Shown here piece by piece: positions 2,030-20,112 of a DNA stretch of 21,789 bases; position 1 is the stretch's first letter; the number at the start of each line of letters is the position of its first letter. The notes under the pieces were generated by a model. That model did not search any database. It saw only the letters and a list, made by a program, of their open reading frames with translations, and was not told where the DNA came from. The DNA lies in assembly GCA_018985235.1 (NCBI GenBank), contig JADGIG010000087.1, positions 1-21,789 of the forward strand, read 5' to 3'. Position numbers and translations under genes: made by a program. The stretch is from Sanchytrium tribonematis (taxonomy: Eukaryota > Sanchytriomycota > Sanchytriomycetes > Sanchytriales > Sanchytriaceae).

Positions 2030-5002
2030 CTAAAGTTTTATTAGATTTTTGTTTTGAATCTCGTAAATTGTATCGGCCTCCAAATCTTGATGAGACACCA
2101 TCACAACAATTTTTCCAGTTTTCCTCAAGAGATTCACAACTTTTTTACGCATTTCGTGGTCCAACGCGTTTGTCATCTCGTCCATTAGAAGCACCTTGCA
2201 TGGATGAATAATACCTCTAATAATTTGAATTCTCTGCTTCTCACCACCACTAAGCTCGACCTTGCTTCTACAAACTCCCCATAAATGATCCAAGTGCAAA
2301 TCAGAAAACAATTGTTTCAAATTATCAAAATTATCAATCTCTCCCATATAGATATTATCCAATATATCACCTCCAAGATAATCATTTTCAACAAGCAATA
2401 TCTTATTTTGAAAGTTTGTCAAAATTGTGCCTTTACAGGGTACCAAATTAGCAATGATTCTTAACAAGGTTGATTTTCCACATCCACTCTCACCTTTAAT
2501 TTGAGTGATGCCCTCATTAAATTCAACACATATTTCTTTTAAAATAGGACTAAAGCTCAAGTTCTCGAGGCTTACTTTATCTATAACTTTGTAAGTGTAA
2601 TTATTCATGGAATGAAACGACACAATGCTTTGGAACAAGTCATACATATCAGAGACCATTTTGAAATTTGTAAGTTCGCCAAAAAACGAACTCAATTGAA
2701 CTGCTGTGTTGATGAGAATTCCTAAAATTGAACTTGCATTAAAAATTGTAATTTTATGGTCCAAAATTAAGGCACCAGTTGTGTAAGTTGTGAATAATAT
2801 GCATATCATAGGCAGTGTGTCTAGGATGCCAAGATGTATACTTTTTAGTTTGCAATATTTCATGCAAGCATTTAGGTGTATTTTTCGACGATTTTTGAGA
2901 AGTCCATCAATAAAAGGTAATTTTCCAAATGGCAGTAGGCTAGAAAGAAAAACTTGACTTTCTTCATATAACATAATAATTTTAGACTCATGAGGATTCA
3001 AAGCCATGCGAGAGATGTATACCACAACACCACAACCAATAAATATTATTTGCAGTGCAAAAATTAACGTGGAAGACTCTCTGATGATAAGGTAAAAAGC
3101 GACGGCAATAGCAGATAAACCTCTAATGCTCTGGAGTAAGCTTTGACAAGAGTAATATTGAATATTGCCGACAACTTCCGTATAAGCAAATAATAACTTT
3201 GGGTGGTAAACCTCTGAGTTTAAAACCAAATCTCTCAATTTAATAGATAAAACGTTCAAAAAGTACGAACTGATTTGCATATTGATCTCAGAAAACGCGT
3301 TTACAGCTGCAGATAATACTAATAGTTTGATGTTGGGATTAGTGAATAGGCCTCCGACAAGATGACCTTGTAAAGGTATAATTATACCACCCATGATGAA
3401 AGACATTGTAGCATAGATCAAGGTAGAAATTGGTATCAATCTATATAACTGTAAAAAAGTATTCAAAATAGAATTTGCTGATTGTTTCTCAGTTTGATGA
3501 TACTGCAAAATATCCGCGCTTGAATTTTGAATTTTAGCCTCTTTCACAATCTTTTGGGATTTGTCGTTTTCTATTAGAGATCCATTTTCCAAAGTGATTA
3601 TTTTAAACTTTTCTTGAAATATGGCATCATGGGTAACCATAATGAGTTTGTAATTCAATAAGTGATGAAAAACAACTTTTGCCAGTCTTTGATTTAAATA
3701 GCTTGTAGGCTCGTCGAGAAGAAGCCATTCATTCTGATAATAAATCAAGTATCTCATTAAACAAATTCTTTGTCTTTGTCCCATGCTCAAAGTATTTGGA
3801 CTACTCAAGACATTTAAATCTAATTCAAATAATTTCAAGAGCTCTTCATACCTCAATTTTGTTTTCTTGTCAAGACTGTCAACGTGAGAAATATAAGGGC
3901 CGCGCATAAAAATATTGTCAAAAACTGTTGACTCTATAAAATTCATGTTTTGGTCCATATACATTGAACTTTTCAAATCGACTTCGCCTTCGAATGGAAT
4001 AGCTTTTGCTAGACATCTTAACAGGGTGGATTTGCCACTATTTGTGTGTCCAAGAATCAGTGTATTCGAATTAACTTCAAAATTTAAATTTTTTAGAATT
4101 ACATTATCATCGATTTTGCAGCTAAGATTTTTGACGTTGAAAGCTCTTTGACTCTCATTTATAATTCTAAAATCAGCGGGATTGGAATCTTTGTCAAATA
4201 TACCATTCAATTTATCCCAAGATAAAGACTTTTTATAATAGCGCTGGTAAGTTCCAACGACGTTGTGTAATTGTATCAACGTCATTCCAAATAACATCAT
4301 ATCCATAAAATTGTCGAATAGCAGATAAATTGCTCCAAGCATTGACATACTGCAGAATTGAAAGAGACTCCAGCCAATTGCACCAGCAAGTGTCAACTTC
4401 CATTGTGATTTGTTTTGTATAACTTGAAGATTCCTAATTTTTGCTTTTAAACTAGTAAATTGCTTGTAAGTATAAAAATGTGTATAATATTCGGTATAAT
4501 AGTGAGTACATTGCTGCCTATCGTGATTCAATGTAGCGCTGTACCGATTAAGAACTTGTAATTGATAATACAAAATAACAGCTGGAATTGCAAATAATAC
4601 AGACACCAATATTATTGTTAATAGGCTATGCTTATAAATGCTGTAAAGGGTATATATAATTGTATTGACTAAATTTAAAAAATCAATCGGCTCTTTCAAA
4701 ACGGGAGTATTAATGTGATATACTGCAGAAAATTCATTGGTATCCAAGGACTTAGGAAAATGAAATATGATAGAATTGACAAGTTTATGGCATTTCGAGT
4801 GCAGGGCGTATTGATAAAATGTCATTACAAGGAATCTAGCCAAAATTACAGCGGACAGAGTAATTAATATATCTTGCAATTCAAACAGATCAAATTTTTT
4901 CTTTACCAGCCCGACTGTTTCCGAGGTCAGATATCCAAATGCCACATACAAAAGGCTTAATAAAAATTGACAAGTTAAAATTTTCCATTCTCCTTGTAGC
5001 AT
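2030..5002 (-). CDS. Full-size ABC transporter (TMD-NBD-TMD-NBD), 990 aa
   Basis: One polypeptide carries two membrane domains and two ATPase domains, giving an ATP-driven exporter-type transporter; the substrate is unknown. Membrane domain 1 covers about residues 1-270 and membrane domain 2 about 510-755, each with several hydrophobic helices. NBD1 has Walker A GHTNSGKST (about 317), signature LSMGQRQR (about 403), Walker B LLLDEPTS (about 425) and H-loop THD (about 456). NBD2 has Walker A GESGCGKST (about 836), signature LSGGEKQR (about 913), Walker B VLLMDEMTN (about 935) and H-loop SHQ (about 966). Both catalytic glutamates and H-loop histidines are present. Deviations: LSMGQ in NBD1, the NBD1 D-loop reads SYLN, and the NBD2 Q-loop position appears to be Asn (VEN where VPQ is usual). 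At 990 aa it is short for a two-module ABCB/ABCC protein. No standard subfamily could be assigned. The start ATG is 2 bases from the divergent RPA32 ATG. Confidence 0.93.
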   Translation of the reverse strand: MLQGEWKILTCQFLLSLLYVAFGYLTSETVGLVKKKFDLFELQDILITLSAVILARFLVMTFYQYALHSKCHKLVNSIIFHFPKSLDTNEFSAVYHINTPVLKEPIDFLNLVNTIIYTLYSIYKHSLLTIILVSVLFAIPAVILYYQLQVLNRYSATLNHDRQQCTHYYTEYYTHFYTYKQFTSLKAKIRNLQVIQNKSQWKLTLAGAIGWSLFQFCSMSMLGAIYLLFDNFMDMMLFGMTLIQLHNVVGTYQRYYKKSLSWDKLNGIFDKDSNPADFRIINESQRAFNVKNLSCKIDDNVILKNLNFEVNSNTLILGHTNSGKSTLLRCLAKAIPFEGEVDLKSSMYMDQNMNFIESTVFDNIFMRGPYISHVDSLDKKTKLRYEELLKLFELDLNVLSSPNTLSMGQRQRICLMRYLIYYQNEWLLLDEPTSYLNQRLAKVVFHHLLNYKLIMVTHDAIFQEKFKIITLENGSLIENDKSQKIVKEAKIQNSSADILQYHQTEKQSANSILNTFLQLYRLIPISTLIYATMSFIMGGIIIPLQGHLVGGLFTNPNIKLLVLSAAVNAFSEINMQISSYFLNVLSIKLRDLVLNSEVYHPKLLFAYTEVVGNIQYYSCQSLLQSIRGLSAIAVAFYLIIRESSTLIFALQIIFIGCGVVVYISRMALNPHESKIIMLYEESQVFLSSLLPFGKLPFIDGLLKNRRKIHLNACMKYCKLKSIHLGILDTLPMICILFTTYTTGALILDHKITIFNASSILGILINTAVQLSSFFGELTNFKMVSDMYDLFQSIVSFHSMNNYTYKVIDKVSLENLSFSPILKEICVEFNEGITQIKGESGCGKSTLLRIIANLVPCKGTILTNFQNKILLVENDYLGGDILDNIYMGEIDNFDNLKQLFSDLHLDHLWGVCRSKVELSGGEKQRIQIIRGIIHPCKVLLMDEMTNALDHEMRKKVVNLLRKTGKIVVMVSHQDLEADTIYEIQNKNLIKL

Positions 5003-5004
5003 AC

Positions 5005-5655
5005 ATGGTAGAAATTGATTTTGTAAGTGCCATTGTACCTGTGCTCGTGGAAGATGTCTTAGGTGGTAGACACGCAGGTGCTACACATGTTATTGAAGGG
5101 CATGGAGTGACGAATATATCCCTATGTGGCAAACTGATTAGGATTGAAGATCAGTTGGGTCAACCATGGTACAAATTGAATGACGCTACAGGTAATGTGA
5201 AGGTCGCTTACGATATTGATCAAGAGCAGGTGGAGGAATGTGGATGTGCAAAAGTTATTGGAAGTGTGAGAACTGATGCAAATGGTGATATATACATTCA
5301 AGCTTACACAATTAATGCCTCTAATGACATCAATGCTCTTAGCTGCCATATTTTGGAGAAAAAATTTGCTTTCAAACTGTATAAACATGGGTTACCACCA
5401 ACCTTGAAGGAACAATACAACATGGGTGACATGCTGCCAATCAGTGGCCCAGTTATTCAGCAGGCTCAAAGTGGTGACACAAAGGAAGCTTTGATTGAAT
5501 TTTTGCGCAACAACGGCACTAAATCAAATCTTCAACAACTAGAATCCCAGTTCCAAGGAATCGACTTATCAAAGCTGTTGTATGAATTGGAAAATGAGGA
5601 TGGCCTTATATATTCCGGTGGCGAACAAGATAATCCAGAGTACACGTTGTTTTAG
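5005..5655 (+). CDS. RPA2: Replication protein A 32 kDa subunit (RPA2), 216 aa
   Basis: This is the middle subunit of the single-stranded-DNA-binding RPA heterotrimer, which acts in replication, repair and checkpoint signalling. The OB-fold occupies about residues 8-125: the family strand IVPVLVEDVLG, then VIEGHGVTNISLCGKLIRIE, a YKLNDATGNVKV stretch (the human protein has YKIDDMTAAPMDV) and the HILEKKFAF helix. The C-terminal winged helix, about residues 150-216, reads KEALIEFLRNNG and ends with a LLYELENEDGLIYS segment. I start at the ATG at 5005, which is the last Met before the first OB strand. The frame is open upstream to 4939, but that part is antisense to the ABC gene and has no family resemblance. 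This leaves almost none of the Ser-rich phosphorylated N-terminus usual in RPA32. Gluconokinase follows 30 bases downstream on the same strand. Confidence 0.92.
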   Translation: MVEIDFVSAIVPVLVEDVLGGRHAGATHVIEGHGVTNISLCGKLIRIEDQLGQPWYKLNDATGNVKVAYDIDQEQVEECGCAKVIGSVRTDANGDIYIQAYTINASNDINALSCHILEKKFAFKLYKHGLPPTLKEQYNMGDMLPISGPVIQQAQSGDTKEALIEFLRNNGTKSNLQQLESQFQGIDLSKLLYELENEDGLIYSGGEQDNPEYTLF

Positions 5656-7610: not shown

Positions 7611-7761
7611 GTATCAAGTTTACCCCAACTGACTATAATTAATAGAGTGGAATTAATTCTATCATAGGCCTAGGGTTTACATGAAAACAGATCAACGAAA
7701 ATAAAGGTCCGTCGAGCCCTTATTCAAGTACAATTACCAATATTGCCCCATAAAACGTTTA
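7611..7761. promoter_or_regulatory. Shared 5' region between divergent genes
   Basis: These 151 bases separate the MAPR start (minus strand) and the unrecognised gene at 7762 (plus strand), so they should hold both promoters. This is the second longest non-coding gap here, just shorter than 10944-11099. It holds an 8-bp palindrome TAGGCCTA at 7665-7672 overlapping TAGGGTTT at 7671-7678. The latter is the complement of AAACCCTA, the telo-box known from plant promoters. AT-rich TAATTAAT stretches lie near 7636. No factor can be named from sequence alone. Confidence 0.4.
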
Positions 7762-8616
7762 ATGGATCGAATCCAGAATACAGCTCAAAATTTAGGGTGG
7801 CTAACATCTTCTAAAGATGAAAATTTTAAGCAGGATTTTCTGCTTTTTGGGAATGTCTCAGCAGCGGAAAAAAATATTATTGAAGGACCATACGAAATCG
7901 CAAAAAATGTTTCTTCTAGAGGAGATAGCCAAGAATGGCTAAGCTCATTAGTGTATCAATCCCAAAATAAGTATCGACTCGATAGATCTGCAGATCTATG
8001 CGGGATGAAATATGACGGAAAATATTCTTCATTCAAAGTTTTTATCAACAGCGTTATTTTAGCATTTAATAACAACGACGATATGATGCTATATGTAAAA
8101 ATATCAAATTTGTTAGCTGCCCTATATGCTGAGAAGGATAGTATTTCTGACTATGAAGAATTCTTAAAAATTTGGAATCAACTTCTTAAATCTACAAAAA
8201 ATCGTGTCAAATTTGCAACATTAATGAAAAACAATGATTTGGTATCAGACATGTTAGAAATTTCTATTATGGAACAGCTTAAAACTGACATAAAAAAGGA
8301 GCGGCTGTCTAAATCTCATTATTTTCAAATCAGCAATTCCACGACAATTGAAGACTGGGTGGTTCATTTTTTTGAATCTGCTGTAGCATTCTCATCACTC
8401 GATATGGCTGATCCATCCCTGGATCATGCCATAAACCAAATATTTACCATAAAGACTAAAACTAAAAAGTCAAAACTTTTCGTTAATTTATATAAAAGAT
8501 TTTCGAACCCGCGGCTAGACTTGAAACATCTACTCTGTTGCTATATTGGGCTTCAAGTAAGAATTGGAAAGTCAACTGTTTATGATGAAGAATATAAAGC
8601 TGTACAATTTGAATAA
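7762..8616 (+). CDS. Unrecognised protein, 284 aa
   Basis: I do not recognise this protein. The ATG at 7762 is the first in frame and follows a non-coding gap, and the frame is open for 284 codons. The product is mostly helical by composition: hydrophobic helices near residues 90-125 (FKVFINSVILAF, YVKISNLLAALYA), around 200-215 (VVHFFESAVAFSSLDM) and 245-270 (LFVNLYKRFSNPRL, LLCCYIGLQVRIG). It is too polar overall for an integral membrane protein. No signal peptide, catalytic motif or repeat is visible. A helical-repeat scaffold or subunit is possible, but nothing identifies one. It ends 10 bases before the Nar1 ATG on the same strand, so the two could share a transcript or the Nar1 promoter may lie inside this gene. 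A perfect 18-bp palindrome sits in the coding region at 7982-7999. Confidence 0.78.
   Translation: MDRIQNTAQNLGWLTSSKDENFKQDFLLFGNVSAAEKNIIEGPYEIAKNVSSRGDSQEWLSSLVYQSQNKYRLDRSADLCGMKYDGKYSSFKVFINSVILAFNNNDDMMLYVKISNLLAALYAEKDSISDYEEFLKIWNQLLKSTKNRVKFATLMKNNDLVSDMLEISIMEQLKTDIKKERLSKSHYFQISNSTTIEDWVVHFFESAVAFSSLDMADPSLDHAINQIFTIKTKTKKSKLFVNLYKRFSNPRLDLKHLLCCYIGLQVRIGKSTVYDEEYKAVQFE
7982..7999. repeat. Perfect 18-bp palindrome inside the unrecognised gene at 7762
   Basis: ATAGATCTGCAGATCTAT equals its own reverse complement. It is in coding sequence, in the DRSADLCG region. No function is apparent. Confidence 0.6.
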
Positions 8617-8626
8617 ACTCCTTGAA

Positions 8627-9964
8627 ATGTCTTTTTCTTCTGGACTACAATTAGCACAATTAAACGACTATTTGCAACCCGCAACCGCATGCATACAACC
8701 TGCGGAAGAGCAACACCAGCTTTCCTTAGACGATTGCTTGGCTTGCAGTGGCTGTATTACTAGCGCAGAATCAATGTTAGTTAACATGCAAACAGAAGAA
8801 GAATTGCTTGAGAATTTAAAGGGAAAAGATGAAATATATTGCATCATTTCAACTCAGACAGTTTTGGCAATATCAAAGCATTACAATACTGATGTTCAAG
8901 AAACGTGGACACGTTTAAATTACTTTGTCACTGAAAAAATAAAAGGTAAAGTTAGGCACATTAATGATGGTCGAATGCTATCACTTCAACTCACCGCTCA
9001 AGAATTTGTGCAAAAATATAGGGAAAAAATGGATTCAGGTAAATTGCCAAAAGGGAAAGTTTCGGATGAAATACTTAAACAGCATTTCTCGGGTCGCTCG
9101 TGCCCTTTGTTTGTTACTTCCTGTCCTGGATGGGTGTGTTATGCAGAGAAAACGCATCCATATTTAATCCCTCTGCTTTCAAAGACTAAGTCTCCTCAGC
9201 AACTCTCCGGTATTCTTTGTAAGCACGCTGATGCAATAGAATCTTCAAGTGCATACGTGTTTTGTGTGATGCCTTGCTATGACAAAAAAATTGAAGCAGC
9301 AAGATCCTCTAATAGCATCAATGGTGTAAAAGATGTTGATTTGGTTTTGACGACTGCCGAATTTATTCGATTAATGGAAAAACTTCAATTTAAGTTTCTA
9401 GACAAAGAATCTCCGAACATAGCCACTCCATTATACCGAACTCTTGGTCAGGGGTCGGGTGGCTATGCAGAGTTCGTATTTCTTTATAGTTTGCAAAATT
9501 TGTTTAATATACCAATTAAATCACTTGTCCATGATTTCAGGTATGAGAAATATCGAATCTCCATCTCTGAAAAGAAAGGTGTGGATTTAAGAGAGTTTGA
9601 ATTATTTGAAAATGAAAATTGTGTGCTCAAGGTTATTGCAGCTTTTGGTTTTAGACATATTCAAAATATAGTTCGCAGCCTTAAGAGAAGAGGTGAGTGT
9701 GATTGCCATTTTTACGAGGTCATGGCTTGTCCAGGTGGCTGCTTGAATGGGGGTGGTCAAGTTAATTTGGTGGGACAAAAGTCTAAATTATCACCAAATG
9801 AGTCCAAATTATGGATTAAGGAAATGATTCTGAAATATCAGCGCCTTGAAGAAACCGCAATCATATCGAAAGATATTGACATTGATCACCGTCACTTCTT
9901 GACAGAATTCATGACAATTGCTTCAAGAGAAGTCAATGCGATGAATGTCGTAAATTCTTGGTGA
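8627..9964 (+). CDS. NAR1: Cytosolic Fe-S cluster assembly factor Nar1 (iron-only hydrogenase-like), 445 aa
   Basis: Nar1 is the core factor of cytosolic iron-sulfur assembly (CIA) that links the Cfd1-Nbp35 scaffold to the targeting complex. The start at 8627 gives MSFSSGLQLAQLNDYLQP, which matches the family N-terminus; the open frame extends upstream to a TTG at 8564, inside the preceding gene. N-terminal cluster ligands are C22 and C37, C40, C43 in DDCLACSGCITSAE. The hydrogenase-like domain shows TSCPGWVCYAEK, then CVMPCYDKK, and EVMACPGGCLNGGGQ, the remaining cluster cysteines. The spacer between C22 and C37 is very short because the variable loop found in animal and yeast Nar1 is absent. 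The protein ends in N-S-W; a C-terminal aromatic residue is a known targeting signal for CIA clients and adaptors. The stop is 4 bases from the stop of the convergent gene. Confidence 0.96.
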   Translation: MSFSSGLQLAQLNDYLQPATACIQPAEEQHQLSLDDCLACSGCITSAESMLVNMQTEEELLENLKGKDEIYCIISTQTVLAISKHYNTDVQETWTRLNYFVTEKIKGKVRHINDGRMLSLQLTAQEFVQKYREKMDSGKLPKGKVSDEILKQHFSGRSCPLFVTSCPGWVCYAEKTHPYLIPLLSKTKSPQQLSGILCKHADAIESSSAYVFCVMPCYDKKIEAARSSNSINGVKDVDLVLTTAEFIRLMEKLQFKFLDKESPNIATPLYRTLGQGSGGYAEFVFLYSLQNLFNIPIKSLVHDFRYEKYRISISEKKGVDLREFELFENENCVLKVIAAFGFRHIQNIVRSLKRRGECDCHFYEVMACPGGCLNGGGQVNLVGQKSKLSPNESKLWIKEMILKYQRLEETAIISKDIDIDHRHFLTEFMTIASREVNAMNVVNSW

Positions 9965-10943: not shown

Positions 10944-11099
10944 TTGTAACAAGGAATTGAAATAGCCTTGACTTGGTTTGTAATTTCCAAATGTATGAAA
11001 ATCATTAGTGATTCAACAACTTGGTGACAAGCTAATATCAGATTTTTGTACACTCTAAGGTGACAATTTGCCCAAAAAATCTCCATTGTTACACAACAC
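10944..11099. promoter_or_regulatory. Gap between divergent genes; may hold a first exon on the minus strand
   Basis: These 156 bases lie between the conservative start of the minus-strand helical protein and the ATG of the giant plus-strand gene. If the minus-strand gene has a first exon starting at 11086, the true gap is only 13 bases. No clear TATA-like element stands out. Confidence 0.3.
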
Positions 11100-14000
11100 A
11101 TGTATCTTCGACTACACTGGACGAATATTTTAATAGCAGCAATAGCCGGCATCCTTCTGTTTTGGTCTTTCATTGTTCCATTAATAATACGATACTTGGT
11201 GCAGACCATACAATACGACGCCACCATCAATAAGATCAAAGTCGATGTTGATGAAATTGTCCAGTATCAAGCAGATATCAGTGTTGGATTAAAAATACCC
11301 ACTGATGTTACCGTTTTTGTAAATACATTAAACATTAATAATTTAATACAGTTGAATGTTAACGAAAATATTCATGTTGAAAATGCAAATCGTTGGCAGC
11401 TAAGTGGCAACGCCAAATTGAATCCAGATGCAATTAAAACCCTTTTAAATACAAAAGACATTGGGGATATCAACATCAATGCTGCAATGGGAATATCAAA
11501 ATATATAAAATTTTACGATTATTTGTGGATCGAAAGAACTGATAAATTACCTCAAATAGATTACACTAAGGTTTTAAAAAACCTACGGTGGTCTCTCTCT
11601 GGGCTATCTGTAGACGTTACAAGCTCTGGATTTAATATTATCGCTGATGTTGATTTAAATAATCCTATTCCAATTGAAATCTACATTCAATTAGCCACGC
11701 TTGATATTTATCTGGGAAAATTAAAATTGGGACGAGGTGGAGTTAAAAATCTAGTGATTAATGAGAAAATAACTTCTGTCAATGCGTTTTTAAATTTAAG
11801 AGATTCATGGGCAGAGGTTCGTGAGTATTTATCAAATGAGTCGAATGCTATTAATTTATTGGACAATGCCACTCTTTCTGGACCTATCAATTTGTACAAA
11901 AATGATCGTATGATAAATTGGTTGGAAGCTGCGACTTCAGATCTTCAAATCAGTTTTGGTTTGAAAGATTTTTTAAAAGTATTTTTGACCGGATTTTTTA
12001 ACATTAAAAACTTTTTAAAAACCGTGGAAGTTACGGTTAGCAACACAGGTAAATATTTGAATGTTCATATTGCCTTCCCTTTTGATGTTGAGCATATTCA
12101 TGAATTTCATTTGTCAAAAAATCTAAAATTTAATGTATTTCACAAGTCACTCAAAATTGCCTCCGTAGAAGCTGACCCTGACTTGACAAATAATCGAGTG
12201 AACCTTGATCTAAATATGGAATTTTTCAACTTTGAGAAGCTTAATGACGTCATTTATGACTACCTTATATTAAACAAGATAAATAGCGAAGAATTATTGA
12301 ACAACATTTATATAGGAGAAGTACAGTTTTCTCGGAGAGATTGTGAGTGGTGCCATTTAATGCTAAAAGATTTTCGACTTAGTTTGGATTTTCTATCAGG
12401 ATTAGATAACTCACCAATATTTGACCAAGTCATAGAAATTATTCAAAACCTTATCCAGATCAAGAACATAAATTCAATTCAAAGTCAATCTTACTCAGGT
12501 TTTGATGCAGTCGCTCATGTAAAATTATCCAACGCCTTCAAGAAATTGAATATCCATCTTGATGATGTTTTTATCGCAATAAAGCACAAATACGAATTTG
12601 TGCAACTTAAGATTAAGAAACTATCAGTCAACTCGGGTTGGAACAGTATACCTTGCATCGTACCATTTTTGCACACTTCCAAGGATTTTGCGGACTTAGT
12701 CCATTCGCTGCTTTATTTAAAAGCACCGATTATTTTCATAAGTTCATTAAAGCTGGGATTGGTAGATCTGAGTGTAGACATTCCAATAGATTTAAGTTGG
12801 TTCTTTCCAGATCCCGTGACTTTACATGATTATGTTACTTTTAACATTAGTTCTATTGATTTGAATATGAACATATACAACTCATTTTCAGCAATCATTT
12901 CTTTAAAATTATTTAGTCGTATTCCTTTGCATGTTAAGACCAACGACATATCGGTGGCCCTTAGTTTGAACGAAGATTCTATGTTCGATGTTAAACTGTC
13001 CTCATTGGATATGCCGATCGGTAACTCGGATTTCAAATTCAAGTCTTTAGTTACTTTTGGGAACACATCAATCGAAAAAGCAAGCAATTATGTGGACGGG
13101 ATTGTTTATAATTACGAACCTAATTACGATCTGGCATTAAGAAATTTGTACCTAATGGGTGGCTCGCCTATAGACTTATTTAAGGACGTGAACTTACCCT
13201 ACAAACTTATGGATGCCGTTCACGGATCGTCTGTTGTATCGGCTGCCAAACTTATCACCCCGACACAAGATTTCGAAATTTCAGTTAAAAAAGCGTATGT
13301 GCGTGCATTGCCCAACAGCTTGTTGGGTGTTCAAATTGCGATTGAAGCATTAAATCCGATTCCGGTGAAATTGTTTATTCCAAATGTGAAATTTGAATTA
13401 GGAATTGGGGATATCACTATCATGTCTGGCACTGTACATTCATTCGATATGCAAAGAAATGAGTTTCTATTTGAGGCAGACATATCCGTGAAGTTTAACA
13501 ACGAATTGAACACTCAAAATGTATTAGCACAATTTATGGAACGTGCCCTTGATCCAGAATCAGTTGAAAATTTGCCAGTCTGGGTGAACGGAATAGGAAT
13601 GGCACCCTCAGATAAACATTACACAGTAATCTTGACGGCTTTAAAAGTCTATTTTAAGAGATTTCTCACCTACTCGTCTGCGCAATTAGTGACTTATTTG
13701 AAACGAACTGTGATTAATCTGAAGTCACTAGCCGTTACTCTGAGCAACAACTTAGTTGTTGATTTGGATATCGGGCTTTCACTTCCATTTGATTTTAAAA
13801 TTGATGTTAATTTTATATCTTTGAATGTGTTGCTAGATTCCGCTAAAGTAATTTCGGTTGTTCTAGAAAACGTGAAACTCTCTAGTAGTAATGGTAAATT
13901 GCATTTGATTGTCGACTTTTTTGATGTACCAGAGATCAAAAACATTTTTAATGATCCATTAATTACGATTTGTGGATTAGTAATTGGACATTCATCTACT

Positions 14001-17000
14001 GATGTTATCTTGGCCTTGCAGAAAATCAATATAGGGAGCAGAGCTAGTGTTTTTTCGAATGTTATCAGACTTCCGCAACTCATCGTGCCAGAACTGAAGA
14101 TCAACGACGTTGATCTTCGAATGGCTAGTGGTGGGAATTTTGACTTATCTTTGGACCTAAATTTGAATTTAAATATTGATGTGTCAATTATTATACCTTC
14201 TATACACCTGATTTTTATGCTTAATCAAGATAGAGTGATTAAATTGGAAATTAGCCATTTTATGCTAAATGCAGGTAAGTTATCAAAATTGCAAATTCAT
14301 GGTGAATTTATAAATGAGGCGCATGGAGATTTTCATCTTTTTAAAAGCTTGCCGGGTTCAATTGGAATAACAGATCTAATATTGAAAAGTTCAACTAAAA
14401 TTGTCACTGGTTTAAAATTTCTGGATATTCATGTGCCTTTATTTTTAATTCAATACCTCAAAGTAGTTCTAAATTGGAAACCAGAATTTTCATTAGATCA
14501 TGTCGAAGTTACATCAATACCCAAGGGACTGATAATCAAACCTAGCGCAAAGTTTGTCTCTATGTTTAAGGTGTTTATACCATTTGCATCTGCCGCATTA
14601 AAAATTGCAGGAGAACCATTTGTAAATGTAGAAATTGACAATATTTTAAAAGATAATCTCATCTTGAAAATAGTGTTTTTCGAAGACATTGGGAAACACA
14701 ATGCCATTCAAGAATTTTTGACCAATGGGCGCGATCTTCAGCTGTCATTATCAGATATTGAGTTTGGCACTAGGCTTCATCGATCGAAAACTTTAAGGCA
14801 ACTTCGATTCTTTGCAGATATTAATGGGGATATTTTATTGAAATTAGCTTCAATAGTTGCGCAATACATTCCTAAAAATCTCTTAAATACTATAGGATTA
14901 AAATCTTTTAAACTGCACCAAAATCAAAAAAGTCTTTTAGGCTCACTTGAAATATATCATCCTTGGCTCAAAATTGTTAATCTTAATTTCCTTGATTTCA
15001 AATTATCGTTAGGCCAAAATCTAAAGATGTTAGACTTAGCTTCAAACCTCAAGTTGGAAAAAAACCTTGACATTCATTATAGTCTCGATTTTTTTGACGA
15101 ATTGGAAAGCCAAAAGGCTTGGAATAATTTATTCGAAAATAGATATTTGGAAATTGATTCAATTGAACTAAATGGTGTCAGAATACTGAGCTCGATTAGT
15201 TTTACGATACCGACGTTCAACATTCCTCAGTTACCAGTGCCCCAAATAGATTTACAAAGGTTTAAAATTAATACTTTTCATATTGATGACAATGTGTTTA
15301 TCAACTTTGAGTACAGCATTGAAAATTTTACTATCGAACTCGATAAATTATCAGTGGGCGTCTTAGTCGATGATGCTCTTATTTTGAATTCCTTCCTGTC
15401 ATTGAGCCATCCAGTCGATTTGGAAGTCGCATTTGTGGATTCAGACATTGCACAACAACGGGTGGCAAAACTAGTAGACTGCTTGTTGCACAAGGATTGC
15501 GAAAAATATAAATTTGGCTTACGCAATCTAGTCATTGGAGATATTCGCGCACTTCAGTTATGTGAAATCAACATCAACCTTGGCCTTGACTTTACATACC
15601 CAATATTAGACCATCTGCTCTCTAAACTTTCAAATTTTGTGCGCAAACTTCACTTGAAGTTTATGGAAGAAACGTTGATTGTTAATGAGATGACTACATT
15701 TGTTTCGTTTAAATTAGATTTTCCATTTTCTGTTTCGATTCCCCACGTGCGACTTGATTTGTTTTCTAATGTGAAGCTGATGGCTGTCACCGCATCTTTG
15801 CATGAAAGTTTAACAATTGACGCCCAAGTGTTTTTTGAAAACAACGAAAATTCAATTCGAGATGTTGCTAATATTTTTTCAAATCCCCAAGCAGTTTTAT
15901 TATTTATACAAAATTTGGAGTTCGGAAATTCTAAACTAATATCTATTTTCAAACAATCATTAATTCCAATTCCCTTATCTCATTTAAATATTCCTAAAAT
16001 TACTTATCCTAAATTTGAGAAAGTGAAATTTTCATCGTTGTCGCTCACACAATCTAATGATTTTAATATACATGCATACTTTGATTTTCATGGTTTTGGA
16101 CTCAACTTTAATTTTTCAAATATTAATTTAAACTTTAGACTTGACAAAAAAGAAGTTATGGCAGTCTCAATTTCTAAGCTTACAAATAGAGAAATCGAGC
16201 TTGATGTTAGATTTTTAGACTTCATTAGCCAAGATATGTTAGATTTGAATTTTATTGGCATTTCAAATTTAGTTTTTGCCGACAATTCCATATTATCGGC
16301 GGTCACCCTAGATTTAAAAAATGAATACTCTATAATAGATATCTGGAACAAATTTGGCAAAACAGCAGGCGATTTTAAATACATATTTGGGCATACCAGT
16401 ATCACTGTAGATAATCAAGACAATCCACTTGAATTAAAAAGCAGTGGATCTTTTCAATCAGCATTTCCCAATGTAAACTTAAAAAATGTTGGTGTGAATG
16501 TACAGATTTCTAATCACTTATTTGGATCATTCAATGTCAACAACATTGATTCAAATGGCTCAGATTTTTATCTGGCTTTACGAGGAAACTTGTACAATCA
16601 CCCTTCTATTGAAAAATCTATTAGAGAAATATATCTAAATGTTCTAAATCACAAAACGCTTCCTGATATCAATATTGGATTTTCAGATTTAAATATTGGT
16701 AACATGCCATATTTGTCACGACTTCTTATCGAAATTCCGATTCGGCATCTATTTCCCAAAAATGCCGAACTCCAAATTCCAAAAATAAGCAATGTGGGTT
16801 TAGAAGACATTCAATTAAACATTGTTGATAATAACAAATTAGATTTGGATGTGAAAGTCAATTTGGTGAATCCTTTTAATGCTAGTCTCAATATTGACAA
16901 AGCTGTGGCCAATCTTTACTTAGGCAATGATTTATTTACAATAGCCGAAGTTAGGCACTTGGAGATAGGTCCGGGTGAAACGTCTATTCCGCTTCATGTG

Positions 17001-18005
17001 TTATGCTCTTTTGAAGATTCCGAAAGCATAGGCAGTCATATCTCTAATATTGTCCATCGGATCTTATATAATGATAATATTGTTGAAACGGCAAGTATTA
17101 GAAATGTAGAATTTGGAAATTCAAAATCCTTATTTTCCTTAATTAGCTTGGTTGACATTGGCATTCAGGTTGGTCAAAAAATACCTATCGTTCAACCCTA
17201 TCTAGAGATACTGCAAGTCAGAGGGGAAGTGAATACTAAGGGAATATCCGTATCTGCTCGTATTAAAATTAGTCCTGAATTGGCTGGAAATATTTTTGGT
17301 ATTAGTGCTGTATTATACCATACAGAGATCAAGCAAAATTTTTTAAGTCTTCAGGTTGACAACTTGGTTCTTTCAGAAGGAACCGTCGATGCCCTCATTT
17401 CATTTCCTAGTGTTGCCGCCATAAAAAATATATGGGATAAAAGCGTAAAAAAAGAAAATATATTTGAGGCTTTAGAAATCCAAAAAGTTCAAATTTTGGG
17501 ACCCGAGTCGACTTCATTGAATTTTCTCGAACATGCTTCTTTGCGATTGCCAAAATTTTATGGAAGTGAGCTTGTGGGATATTTTTCGCCTAAAAATTTG
17601 TTTAAATTATTAGTGAATGTCTACGTCCCTGTCCATGTTCCATTTGATGTAGAAATTGACTTTCATCATTTTTATTTTGAAGCATGGGATTATGTTGATT
17701 CGAATCGAAGTAGACTTGACTATATTGTAGCTACAGTAGACGAACAATTTATGTTTGATTCGAAGGAAAATGGTGCGAGACTGGCTGCAAAATTCAGTGG
17801 CTCTTTCCTTAAACTTGGAAACATTATTTGGAGAATGAATAAAGCGAAGGGATTGAAAAATATTAAAGTATTTCACCCTGTTGAGGGAGAAATTCCCTGG
17901 ATCACAAAATTGAACGAAGTAGGATTTTTCTTCCGTGGAGAACTTAGACTTAGAAACCCTGATATAAAGCAACTGGATTCTTTTAATCAAACACAAAATA
18001 AATAA
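11100..18005 (+). CDS. Giant membrane-anchored beta-rich repeat protein, DUF3712/Tag1-like, 2301 aa
   Basis: A single open frame of 2301 codons with one N-terminal membrane anchor at about residues 9-33 after a short cytosolic tail. The rest is expected in a lumen or outside the cell. The remainder is made of alternating short hydrophobic strands, with recurring NP or LPF turns followed by strand pairs: DLNNPIPIEIYI (about 186), EALNPIPVKLFI (about 749), LSLPFDFKIDVNF (about 892), LSHPVDLEVAF (about 1435), FPFSVSIPHVRLDLF (about 1541), LVNPFNASLNI (about 1921), HVPFDVEIDFHH (about 2180). This pattern is that of LEA14-like beta sandwiches in fungal DUF3712 proteins such as yeast Tag1, a vacuolar membrane protein linked to ending autophagy. 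Yeast Tag1 is far shorter. A second recurrent element, IPxxxxPxI-like strands, occurs near 990, 1369, 1622 and 1879. Cysteines are few. Family assignment is moderate; the gene itself is certain. Confidence 0.8.
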   Translation: MYLRLHWTNILIAAIAGILLFWSFIVPLIIRYLVQTIQYDATINKIKVDVDEIVQYQADISVGLKIPTDVTVFVNTLNINNLIQLNVNENIHVENANRWQLSGNAKLNPDAIKTLLNTKDIGDININAAMGISKYIKFYDYLWIERTDKLPQIDYTKVLKNLRWSLSGLSVDVTSSGFNIIADVDLNNPIPIEIYIQLATLDIYLGKLKLGRGGVKNLVINEKITSVNAFLNLRDSWAEVREYLSNESNAINLLDNATLSGPINLYKNDRMINWLEAATSDLQISFGLKDFLKVFLTGFFNIKNFLKTVEVTVSNTGKYLNVHIAFPFDVEHIHEFHLSKNLKFNVFHKSLKIASVEADPDLTNNRVNLDLNMEFFNFEKLNDVIYDYLILNKINSEELLNNIYIGEVQFSRRDCEWCHLMLKDFRLSLDFLSGLDNSPIFDQVIEIIQNLIQIKNINSIQSQSYSGFDAVAHVKLSNAFKKLNIHLDDVFIAIKHKYEFVQLKIKKLSVNSGWNSIPCIVPFLHTSKDFADLVHSLLYLKAPIIFISSLKLGLVDLSVDIPIDLSWFFPDPVTLHDYVTFNISSIDLNMNIYNSFSAIISLKLFSRIPLHVKTNDISVALSLNEDSMFDVKLSSLDMPIGNSDFKFKSLVTFGNTSIEKASNYVDGIVYNYEPNYDLALRNLYLMGGSPIDLFKDVNLPYKLMDAVHGSSVVSAAKLITPTQDFEISVKKAYVRALPNSLLGVQIAIEALNPIPVKLFIPNVKFELGIGDITIMSGTVHSFDMQRNEFLFEADISVKFNNELNTQNVLAQFMERALDPESVENLPVWVNGIGMAPSDKHYTVILTALKVYFKRFLTYSSAQLVTYLKRTVINLKSLAVTLSNNLVVDLDIGLSLPFDFKIDVNFISLNVLLDSAKVISVVLENVKLSSSNGKLHLIVDFFDVPEIKNIFNDPLITICGLVIGHSSTDVILALQKINIGSRASVFSNVIRLPQLIVPELKINDVDLRMASGGNFDLSLDLNLNLNIDVSIIIPSIHLIFMLNQDRVIKLEISHFMLNAGKLSKLQIHGEFINEAHGDFHLFKSLPGSIGITDLILKSSTKIVTGLKFLDIHVPLFLIQYLKVVLNWKPEFSLDHVEVTSIPKGLIIKPSAKFVSMFKVFIPFASAALKIAGEPFVNVEIDNILKDNLILKIVFFEDIGKHNAIQEFLTNGRDLQLSLSDIEFGTRLHRSKTLRQLRFFADINGDILLKLASIVAQYIPKNLLNTIGLKSFKLHQNQKSLLGSLEIYHPWLKIVNLNFLDFKLSLGQNLKMLDLASNLKLEKNLDIHYSLDFFDELESQKAWNNLFENRYLEIDSIELNGVRILSSISFTIPTFNIPQLPVPQIDLQRFKINTFHIDDNVFINFEYSIENFTIELDKLSVGVLVDDALILNSFLSLSHPVDLEVAFVDSDIAQQRVAKLVDCLLHKDCEKYKFGLRNLVIGDIRALQLCEININLGLDFTYPILDHLLSKLSNFVRKLHLKFMEETLIVNEMTTFVSFKLDFPFSVSIPHVRLDLFSNVKLMAVTASLHESLTIDAQVFFENNENSIRDVANIFSNPQAVLLFIQNLEFGNSKLISIFKQSLIPIPLSHLNIPKITYPKFEKVKFSSLSLTQSNDFNIHAYFDFHGFGLNFNFSNINLNFRLDKKEVMAVSISKLTNREIELDVRFLDFISQDMLDLNFIGISNLVFADNSILSAVTLDLKNEYSIIDIWNKFGKTAGDFKYIFGHTSITVDNQDNPLELKSSGSFQSAFPNVNLKNVGVNVQISNHLFGSFNVNNIDSNGSDFYLALRGNLYNHPSIEKSIREIYLNVLNHKTLPDINIGFSDLNIGNMPYLSRLLIEIPIRHLFPKNAELQIPKISNVGLEDIQLNIVDNNKLDLDVKVNLVNPFNASLNIDKAVANLYLGNDLFTIAEVRHLEIGPGETSIPLHVLCSFEDSESIGSHISNIVHRILYNDNIVETASIRNVEFGNSKSLFSLISLVDIGIQVGQKIPIVQPYLEILQVRGEVNTKGISVSARIKISPELAGNIFGISAVLYHTEIKQNFLSLQVDNLVLSEGTVDALISFPSVAAIKNIWDKSVKKENIFEALEIQKVQILGPESTSLNFLEHASLRLPKFYGSELVGYFSPKNLFKLLVNVYVPVHVPFDVEIDFHHFYFEAWDYVDSNRSRLDYIVATVDEQFMFDSKENGARLAAKFSGSFLKLGNIIWRMNKAKGLKNIKVFHPVEGEIPWITKLNEVGFFFRGELRLRNPDIKQLDSFNQTQNK
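14096..14118. repeat. Near-perfect 23-bp palindrome inside the giant gene
   Basis: Two 11-base arms, GAAGATCAACG and CGTTGATCTTC, flank one central A. The element lies wholly in coding sequence (LKINDVDLRM region of the giant protein). It could form a hairpin but has no loop of normal size, so a chance or protein-binding palindrome is likelier than an RNA stem. Confidence 0.6.
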
Positions 18006-18035
18006 AGTTGTACAGTTGAAAACCCGTGAAACAGC

Positions 18036-18725
18036 ATGGTGGAGCGAAAAGTACTTTCCAAACATTTACCTTCAGGAATAAATCCACGAAAGGTTCCACG
18101 TATAGCTTTGGCAATTAAAAAGCATAAGAAAGTGAGATTATGTGCTCCATTTACTATGAATTGTGAAAAGTGTCATGAATTTATTCATAAAGGAAAAAAA
18201 TTTAATGCTCGGAAAGAACATACACATCAATTTTTTATGACCATTGAAATATTCAGATTTTATATCAAATGTACATTGTGTTCAACCGAAATCATATTTG
18301 CGACTGATCCAGAAAATGCGGATTATACCATAATTAAAGGCGCCAAAAGAAGTGCAGAGCCACATGCGGAAGAAAAGAAACAAAGAATCTTGAAAGATAT
18401 TCGCAAAGATTTTGAAGATGATGGAGATTCAGAAGAAGATGAGATAGATCCATTAGCTAAACTCGAAGAAAAAACTAAAATTCAACAACAGGAAATGAAA
18501 GATATTGATGACATTGAGGCTTTAAAAGAACAGCAAGCTCAATTTCACAAACTTGAAAATCAAAATTATGCTAAAACCGAAGAGGAAGAGTTGGAGTGGT
18601 TCAGAAAGCAAAAAAGTGGCATTCCTGATCAAGATGCGCTTCGTAATATAGAGACCACGACATTTGCTATCAGACCTCAGAAAAATAACATTCATTTGGG
18701 TCTTGACTACAGTGATTCTGACTGA
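18036..18725 (+). CDS. YJU2: Pre-mRNA splicing factor Yju2/CCDC94 (Cwc16 family), 229 aa
   Basis: Yju2 is a step-one spliceosome factor, recruited around Prp2 action and associated with the Prp19 (NTC) complex, which promotes branching in the nucleus. The N-terminus MVERKVLSKHLP matches the family start. A zinc site is formed by C43-x2-C46 and C79-x2-C82, with KGKKFNARKE between them and IFRFYIKC and FATDPENADYT around the second pair, all family hallmarks. The second half is a charged helix and coiled coil (about 105-205), rich in Glu, Lys and Gln, and the protein ends in an acidic DYSDSD. Length is close to yeast Yju2 and shorter than human CCDC94. It begins 30 bases after the giant gene and 63 bases separate it from the phosphodiesterase ATG on the same strand. 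Its presence shows that spliceosomal introns exist in this organism. Confidence 0.95.
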   Translation: MVERKVLSKHLPSGINPRKVPRIALAIKKHKKVRLCAPFTMNCEKCHEFIHKGKKFNARKEHTHQFFMTIEIFRFYIKCTLCSTEIIFATDPENADYTIIKGAKRSAEPHAEEKKQRILKDIRKDFEDDGDSEEDEIDPLAKLEEKTKIQQQEMKDIDDIEALKEQQAQFHKLENQNYAKTEEEELEWFRKQKSGIPDQDALRNIETTTFAIRPQKNNIHLGLDYSDSD

Positions 18726-18788
18726 TATTGGTGTAAACTTGTGAATAATAAACTTAAATTATATTTTTGCTGCACTGAAACAAGCATA

Positions 18789-20112
18789 ATGTTAGAACAG
18801 GAACTGGCGGATGAACAAAATCAGCCACTTTTGGAAAACAATCAAAGACGAAGAAAGCTTCAGGTAGGAATTCTTACGGCCTTTATCTTGATTGTATTTT
18901 TATTAGGTGGCCTTATTTTTCTAGTTAGTAGTCCTGATCCTGAACGCACTGTATTACTAATAAGTCTTGACGGTTTTCGATACGAATACCTAGAAAGAGG
19001 GTTCACTTCTAATTTACTTCATATGATGAAAAATGGAGTTCATGCAAAAATGATTCCTTCATTTCCAAGTTCAACCTTTCCAAATCATTATACACTAGTG
19101 ACAGGACTTCATCCCGAGAAGCATGGCATCATCGATAACCATTTTTTCGATCCTGAATTTAATGAGACTTTTGATTACAAAAGCGAGAGCTCGTTGCAGA
19201 AGAAATGGTGGAAAGGTGAAAGTATTTGGCAAACTGTAGAAAAAGCAAATTATAGCAGTTTTGTCTACATGTATCCCGGCTGCAATGTCGACCATGATAT
19301 AAAACCTAAAAAATATGTTCCTTACGACGACGCAGTCAAATTTGATCAAAAAATCGATGTTATTTTGAAAGAGCTCGAAAACAATAGACCAAAATTTATG
19401 GCCATCTATACTCCTGAGGTAGATCAGATCGGTCATAGAAGTGGACCTGACTCTGCAGACGTAAATACTATACTCTCGATCATTGACGATGGTTTTCGTA
19501 GATTGTTAGACGGAATTAGGGAATTGTCTTTACAGGACTTTGTAGATGTAGTTGTGGTGAGTGACCATGGCATGATGAATGTCAGACCGGATGCATGGAT
19601 TGACTATCAAAAATGGATGCCTGAAATTTCTCAAAAAATGAAAATTTCAGATGAAGGTGTAGTATGGGGCGCATATCCAGACAAACATAGTAATAATTAC
19701 TTATTTAGGCATCGGTAATTTTTTTCTACAGCTTAAAAATGTATCAATGAAATCAAATACCTTTAAAATCCATTTAAGAGAGGAGGTTCCAGAGCATTTA
19801 AATTATCAAGATTCGCATAGAATACCCCCAATTTTGGCCTTTCCAAATCCTGGATATTATATATCCAAGAGTCAGTGGACTATAAGAGGCAATCATGGCT
19901 ATGATCCAGCTGAAGTCCAAGACATGAAAGCATTATTTATAGGTTACGGGCCAAGTTTTGAATCTTGTCCACCTTATCCTTTTTCGATTAGCCCAAACAC
20001 TAAAAAATGTCAATGGGATGATTTCGAAAACACCAATGTCCACGGTATATTATGCAAGTTGCTATTTAAAGACCCTGATGAATGCTTGAATACAAATTCA
20101 ATTTATTTGTAA
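18789..20112 (+). CDS. Ectonucleotide pyrophosphatase/phosphodiesterase, two exons, 434 aa
   Basis: A type II membrane enzyme of the alkaline-phosphatase superfamily that splits nucleotide phosphodiester and pyrophosphate bonds (for example ATP to AMP and PPi) outside the cell or in a lumen. The first family-consistent ATG is at 18789; an upstream in-frame GTG at 18741 is not used. A short polar tail precedes a membrane segment at about 26-46. Metal and catalytic residues are complete: D61 (SLDGF), nucleophile T96 (STFPNHY), D212 and H216 (EVDQIGHRSGP), D259 and H260 (VVVSDHGM), and H363 (RGNHGYDP). The frame breaks near 19716 and resumes one position shifted. Removing the 19 nt at 19690-19708 joins GAYPDKHS to IGNFFLQLKNVS and on to EEVPEHLNY, matching family order. 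The C-terminal nuclease-like domain of animal ENPPs is absent. The TAA abuts the stop of the 5'-nucleotidase gene. Confidence 0.9.
19690..19708 (+). other. Candidate 19-nt spliceosomal intron in the phosphodiesterase gene
   Basis: The sequence GTAATAATTACTTATTTAG begins GTAA and ends TTTAG. The upstream frame reaches a stop at 19716-19718, while the homologous downstream frame is shifted by one. Excising 19 bases (3n+1) restores the frame and makes an AGC serine codon at the junction. Splicing has not been seen; a one-base sequencing or assembly error is the alternative. Confidence 0.6.

Follow-up and report, generated by a model that had tools for sequence, protein, structure and literature searches.

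Introns of uniform length between 15 and 21 nt have been described for heterotrich ciliates, mikrocytids and the nucleomorphs of chlorarachniophytes (PMC9505925, PMC10245619). In Mikrocytos mackini 217 of 224 introns have 16 nt and 7 have 17 nt, and the chlorarachniophyte nucleomorph carries more than 800 introns in about 300 genes (both PMC10245619). For the ciliate Stentor coeruleus, the branch A is placed at 10 or 11 (PMC9505925). Introns of the fungus Cryptococcus neoformans have an average length of 56 nt; those below 60 nt are termed ultra-short, and a class of 20-40 nt exists (PMC11913375).

The window analysed here, the whole stretch of 21,789 nt from Sanchytrium tribonematis, contains a gene for an NPP-type phosphodiesterase in which two reading frames are separated by a short gap (Table 1). 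This gap, GTAATAATTACTTATTTAG, is almost certainly an intron of the spliceosomal U2 type (GT-AG) and as such belongs to a genomic class of several hundred, perhaps as many as two thousand, introns with a length nearly fixed at 19 nt and a minority of 20 nt. The chlorarachniophyte nucleomorph agrees in the range of lengths, being a reduced genome with hundreds of introns of 18-21 nt in a narrow spread (PMC10245619), but a nucleomorph is the relict nucleus of an algal endosymbiont, whereas a nuclear genome of a fungal lineage is concerned here. Mikrocytids, including Paramikrocytos canceri, share with the host a near-uniform intron length, a conserved motif and the parasitic life; they belong to the Rhizaria, their introns are 2-3 nt shorter and have the support of RNA reads, while the introns here were recognised from sequence alone (PMC10245619). 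Stentor coeruleus resembles the host in two adjacent lengths (15-16 nt), a constant spacing between branch A and 3' end, AU-rich introns and conserved U2/U6 pairing motifs; unlike the host it is a ciliate with introns 4 nt shorter and without the strong branch consensus that the clear YTNAY provides here (PMC9505925). Cryptococcus neoformans has fungal U2-type introns as well, but its efficiently spliced class of 40-60 nt is broadly spread, in contrast to the one length of 19 nt here (PMC11913375). The preliminary description of this DNA had ranked the intron among the shortest known, which is fair, although introns of 15-17 nt have been published (PMC9505925, PMC10245619). No report of a uniform 15-21-nt intron class in fungi was found in a search of mostly open literature on sanchytrids, fungal intron length and ultra-short introns. 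The sanchytrid texts searched contained the word intron only in a reference title on rDNA, and it was absent from the main text of the Paramicrosporidium genome paper. A fungal case of uniform introns of about 19 nt appears to be new.

Table 1. Features of the NPP-type phosphodiesterase gene and its upstream neighbour in the window
Feature	Position	Strand	Basis
19-nt intron GTAATAATTACTTATTTAG, phase 1	19690..19708	+	sequence, frame repair, motif scan
5' splice site GTAA	19690..19693	+	sequence and class consensus
Proposed branch site CTTAT; A at 19703, intron position -6 from the 3' end	19700..19704	+	inferred from class motif YTNAY
3' splice site TAG	19706..19708	+	sequence and class motif
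Exon 1, NPP-type phosphodiesterase gene; begins with the ATG at 18789, as does P0001	18789..19689	+	frames, PF01663, relatives
Exon 2, NPP-type phosphodiesterase gene, including stop codon	19709..20112	+	frames, PF01663, P0002
Rejected alternative 19-nt GT..AG, repairs frame, deletes GAYP	19662..19680	+	frame-repair and motif scans
Yju2 splicing-factor gene, directly upstream of the NPP gene	18030..18725	+	profile match and human YJU2 alignment

The two stop-to-stop frames of the gene (18726-19718 and 19663-20112) are offset by one base and overlap at 19663-19718. Both matched PF01663, the upstream frame at positions 1-256 and the downstream frame at 286-342 of the 342 profile positions, with 247.2 and 31.4 bits against a gathering score of 23, in agreement with the two NPP-family frames one base apart that had been noted before. 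Read without splicing, the gene reaches a stop at residue 309. Removal of the 19 nt (GT...AG ends) creates the junction CATA|GCATCG and a protein of 434 residues that reads ...GAYPDKHSIGNFFLQLKN...EEVPEHL; it is 65 % identical to P0002, its closest uninterrupted relative, with 100 % of the length aligned. An exact repair at the expected family position had been proposed. The frame is indeed restored, but among six full-length homologs the junction was free of gaps only against two (P0007, P0009); one residue was missing against P0002, P0010 and P0016, and three were extra against P0013. Since the alignments differ by homolog, the exact number of bases removed cannot be derived from the NPP gene alone. 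The exact string occurs a single time in the 6.34 Mb of the genome.

Such introns were sought in the genome (6,336,753 bases on 311 contigs), of which 251,789 bases in 24 stretches including the window, about 4 %, were analysed base by base and the remainder by pattern counts. The 19-nt pattern GTAWWN5YTDAYNTAG occurred 412 times against 55 for the reversed pattern; with three spacer bases inserted (22 nt), it occurred 11 times, reversed 61 times, which makes a chance origin of the class as a whole untenable. GTAAN{3,19}TTATTTAG gave 119 matches and GTATN{3,19}TTATTTAG 109. The reversed controls, 183 and 113, reached or exceeded these totals, which are uninformative alone; the length peak is the evidence. 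Among the 100 matches listed for the first pattern, 67 have 19 nt and 11 have 20 nt; among the 100 listed for the second, the numbers are 59 and 11. A fixed 20-nt pattern was found 28 times in the genome against 25 times reversed, so the 20-nt class rests on the length distributions and on the scans for motif and frame repair. Such a scan for GTA...YTNAYN(T/A)AG in the 252 kb, in which removal had to join open frames of at least 40 aa upstream and at least 30 aa downstream with stops in the unspliced readings, yielded 15 introns of 19 nt, 6 of 20 nt, 3 of 25 nt and 0-2 of any other length from 14 to 150 nt; the motif had been trained on these very 252 kb and was required at all lengths up to 150 nt. 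The preliminary description had suggested scanning for frame-repairing GT-AG gaps, and the peak at 19 and 20 nt, together with the 412 against 11 genomic counts, bears out its suspicion of ultra-short introns in this genome. Scans free of the motif were noisy, yet still peaked at 19 nt. With GT..AG and 60 aa on each side, 17 repairs were of 19 nt (15 once the duplicate locus L001 is set aside), compared with 0-8 for each other length of 12-30 nt and 1-12 for each of 31-80 nt. With GTA..AG and 30 aa, 32 were of 19 nt and 17 of 20 nt, besides 26 of 25 nt, 21 of 28 nt and 20 of 22 nt. A narrow length peak within 15-21 nt was hence present across the genome. As a rough estimate, the genome holds about 1,000 such introns, scaled from the 412 matches since that pattern is present in 6 of the 15 introns of 19 nt in the 252 kb; the sampling error of this 6/15 gives a range of 624-2,023. 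Scaling of the local motif excess gives, equally roughly, about 600. A 25-nt class, suggested by eight candidates with a score of at least 14 in one motif count, fell apart on inspection: three share the 3' end of a 19- or 20-nt site with an upstream GTA, one starts at the end of a 19-nt site, another falls within the uninterrupted RPB1 frame, and the frames of the remaining three are short or weak. Further introns with a length of 3n, hidden in frame, had been considered possible as well, but 18- and 21-nt lengths remained at background in the motif counts; the frame-repair test is less sensitive for these two lengths.

The motif was derived from 18 GTA..AG strings of 19 nt that repair a frame (minimum 80 and 50 aa). 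The rejected 19662-19680 is part of this training set, as is at least one further string that is probably false. Position 14 was A in 17 of the 18 and position 15 T in 16, whereas position 11 was always C or T. The resulting branch motif YTNAY with the A at -6 from the 3' end was present in 17 of 18. In the 20-nt introns of the 252-kb scan YTNAY stood at an unchanged distance from the 3' end, a spacing that the search required. For 22 introns the phases 0, 1 and 2 were represented 5, 6 and 11 times, the mean A+T content was 79 % and the exon flanks were without strong preference. The consensus of the 5' splice site lacks the usual G at +5; U1 pairing would hence have to be short, with much of the remaining signal residing in the branch site and TAG. 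The NPP intron, itself one of the training strings, had the highest score of the window for lengths of 18-21 nt (17.6), and no other stretch of these lengths in the window reached 14 in the motif scan (best 13.6). Little room for a branch point had been seen in it, a concern that did not hold: CTTAT with the A at position 14 is the norm of the class. CTTAT has one mismatch to CTAAC-type sites, and its A can pair with GUAGUA of U2, as judged by sequence only.

In five of five other genes aligned, drawn from 22 listed candidates, intron removal joined the proteins without gap. SF3B1 (against the human protein), an RPD3/HDAC1-type deacetylase, homogentisate dioxygenase and a MutS-family gene, presumably MSH4-like, have a 19-nt intron, the last at a point where P0241, P0242, P0244 and P0245 are uninterrupted; RPB1, compared with eight other proteins, has one of 20 nt. 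For an NAD kinase and a SNF1-type kinase, the joins appear correct on visual inspection only. One 10-kb stretch, L018, carries both RPB1 (+) and SF3B1 (-), and one ultra-short intron was found in each. Two EukProt proteins are 100 % identical to the first exons of this genome: P0121 (L018 569-3652, +) ends within a few residues past the 20-nt intron of RPB1, and P0243 (L020, - strand) within a few residues past the 19-nt intron of the MutS-family gene. These entries in a public protein set are thus cut short at introns. For the published sanchytrid genomes, SPAdes was used for assembly and TransDecoder for protein prediction from the contigs, a procedure that fits missed introns (PMC8371127).

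The NPP relatives P0003-P0006, which are 72, 71, 64 and 58 % identical to the NPP protein, all stop just past the stretch equivalent to GAYPDKH. They end there with GAFPPKQ-G, GAFPPKD-C, GAFPIKD-G and GAFPEDD-G, respectively, and the unspliced form of the window, P0001, with GAYPDKH-S. S, G and C can all be derived from N|GT; the break thus falls on one and the same codon in the four relatives, where a GT at the phase of the window is possible. Judged by the translated tails, P0006 would be compatible with a 19-nt intron, P0005 with 20 nt and a GTC donor, and P0003 with 17 or 22 nt, whereas P0004 would not be compatible with 19 nt under the strict motif. P0002, from an environmental contig, has GAYV where the window has GAYP, and its NPP gene is without interruption.

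These observations weigh against the other readings of the frame break. An assembly or sequencing error, i.e., a one-base indel within 19663-19716 that splits an intact frame and leaves GT..AG by chance, is very improbable. A one-base deletion joins the frames with a nearly equal homology score, the 19-nt removal being better by only about 4-6 bits for each of three homologs, and the published sanchytrid genome was assembled in single-cell mode (PMC8371127). However, the 19-nt signature was found hundreds of times and repairs unrelated conserved genes, and the four relatives that end at the same codon are with 58-72 % identity not the same sequence. The T run at 19719-19725 lies downstream of the stop codon 19716-19718 and hence cannot be the cause. 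For a decaying pseudogene with a true frameshift the frame break itself is the one argument; with both parts similar to P0002 over the whole length, frames that are otherwise open and a break point common to the relatives, this reading has hardly any probability left. Programmed ribosomal frameshifting or another translational bypass would suit the overlap of the two frames, but leaves the length of 19-20 nt with GTA and YTNAY-N-TAG ends unexplained at hundreds of sites and is just as extremely improbable.

A real intron with other splice sites is also most unlikely, less so than these last two but more so than an indel. The pair 19662-19680 and a 70-nt pair, 19662-19731, both restore the frame (the latter checked by hand), and the 70-nt stretch GTATGG...CTACAG resembles an ordinary fungal intron. 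Both pairs would however delete GAYP, which corresponds to GAYV in P0002 and GAFP in P0003-P0006, and the motif scan gave no further favoured length up to 150 nt. In the comparison of the two 19-nt strings, both members of the 18-string training set, 19662-19680 scored below 8 against 17.6 for 19690-19708. The 17-nt string GTAATTTTTTTCTACAG (19715-19731), tried by hand as an intron, did not restore the frame. The 19-nt intron at 19690-19708, which had been put forward as the best explanation of the frame, is thus supported by its class, the frame repair and the relatives that break at the same codon.

A spliceosome is present in the genome, with U2, U6, a Prp8 domain, SF3B1 and Yju2, and with U1 as a candidate only. 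U2 RNA was found with 115.9 bits and GUAGUA kept, U6 RNA with 61.8 bits and ACAGAGA kept. The U1 candidate (43.7 bits, E 2.5e-9) lies below the Rfam cut-off of 69.5 and has the canonical AUACUUACCU at its 5' end; a loose U1 search matched in 9 of 14 control genomes, in none of them above the cut-off. PF10597, which we take to be the Prp8 domain, was matched in an open frame of 2,239 aa, and the N-terminus of Yju2 aligns with human YJU2 from residue 1. U5 was not found in an Rfam search of the genome up to E 10, and the search for U4 gave weak matches only, the best with E 0.77, similar to the control genomes. From the sequence class, the length peak, the motif, the frame repair and the U2, U6, U1 candidate and Prp8 matches we infer that these introns are spliced. 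The major spliceosome would remove the 19- and 20-nt introns, with U1 and U6 recognising GUA(A/U) and U2 pairing with the branch site YUNAY, in which the A is at -6 relative to the 3' end. As the branch A would follow the first G at a distance of 13 nt, the lariat loop would be 14 nt (or 15), and the 3' cut would fall at the next AG, leaving a tail of 5 nt after the branch that ends in TAG. A fixed distance from branch to AG without pyrimidine tract has been described for Yarrowia, Trichomonas and Giardia (PMC2483917).

The phylogenetic placement of the host was examined in an RPB1 tree of 34 rows (quick method, one gene, no outgroup), in which it grouped with P0122 at a support of 100. Both together with four Blastocladiomycota were split from the other 28 rows with an SH-aLRT of 83, so that the sister position to Blastocladiomycota that characterises Sanchytriomycota was recovered in this one-gene tree. 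The GC content of the 252 kb was 35.2 %; Sanchytrium tribonematis has a published value of 34.64 % and Amoeboradix gromovi one of 36.27 % (PMC8371127). The related environmental contigs P0002 and P0122 carry uninterrupted NPP and RPB1 genes, and the P0122 branch is long (0.58). Both may stem from a sister lineage in which these introns were lost. We lean slightly towards the view that the whole sanchytrid phylum converged on one-size introns, essentially all of 19 or 20 nt with a fixed spacing from branch to 3' end, with an otherwise ordinary U1/U2/U6/Prp8 spliceosome and no longer introns; protein sets blind to these introns would then be truncated throughout and inferences of gene loss in the phylum biased. 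Already for this genome, fragments in public protein sets that end at introns could be misread as the loss of a gene or domain. With the introns of this genome, Fungi would join the few lineages whose introns shrank independently towards the physical minimum, in this case with U2 and U6 recognisable and U1 likely. Fungal spliceosomes are the best studied, which would allow asking which alterations accommodate a lariat loop as small as 14 nt.

The window contains several other frames. On the - strand, 2030-5080 encodes 1016 aa with two ABC transporter domains; its start is overlapped at 4864-5080 by a + strand frame (4864-5655) that is RPA2-like by eye, without a Pfam match. One uninterrupted frame of 2313 aa with repetitive hydrophobic stretches occupies 11064-18005. 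An iron-only hydrogenase-like protein (PF02906, E 3.6e-46), presumably of the Nar1/Narf type, is encoded at 8561-9964, and this stop-to-stop frame overlaps the preceding frame 7705-8616 by 56 bases.
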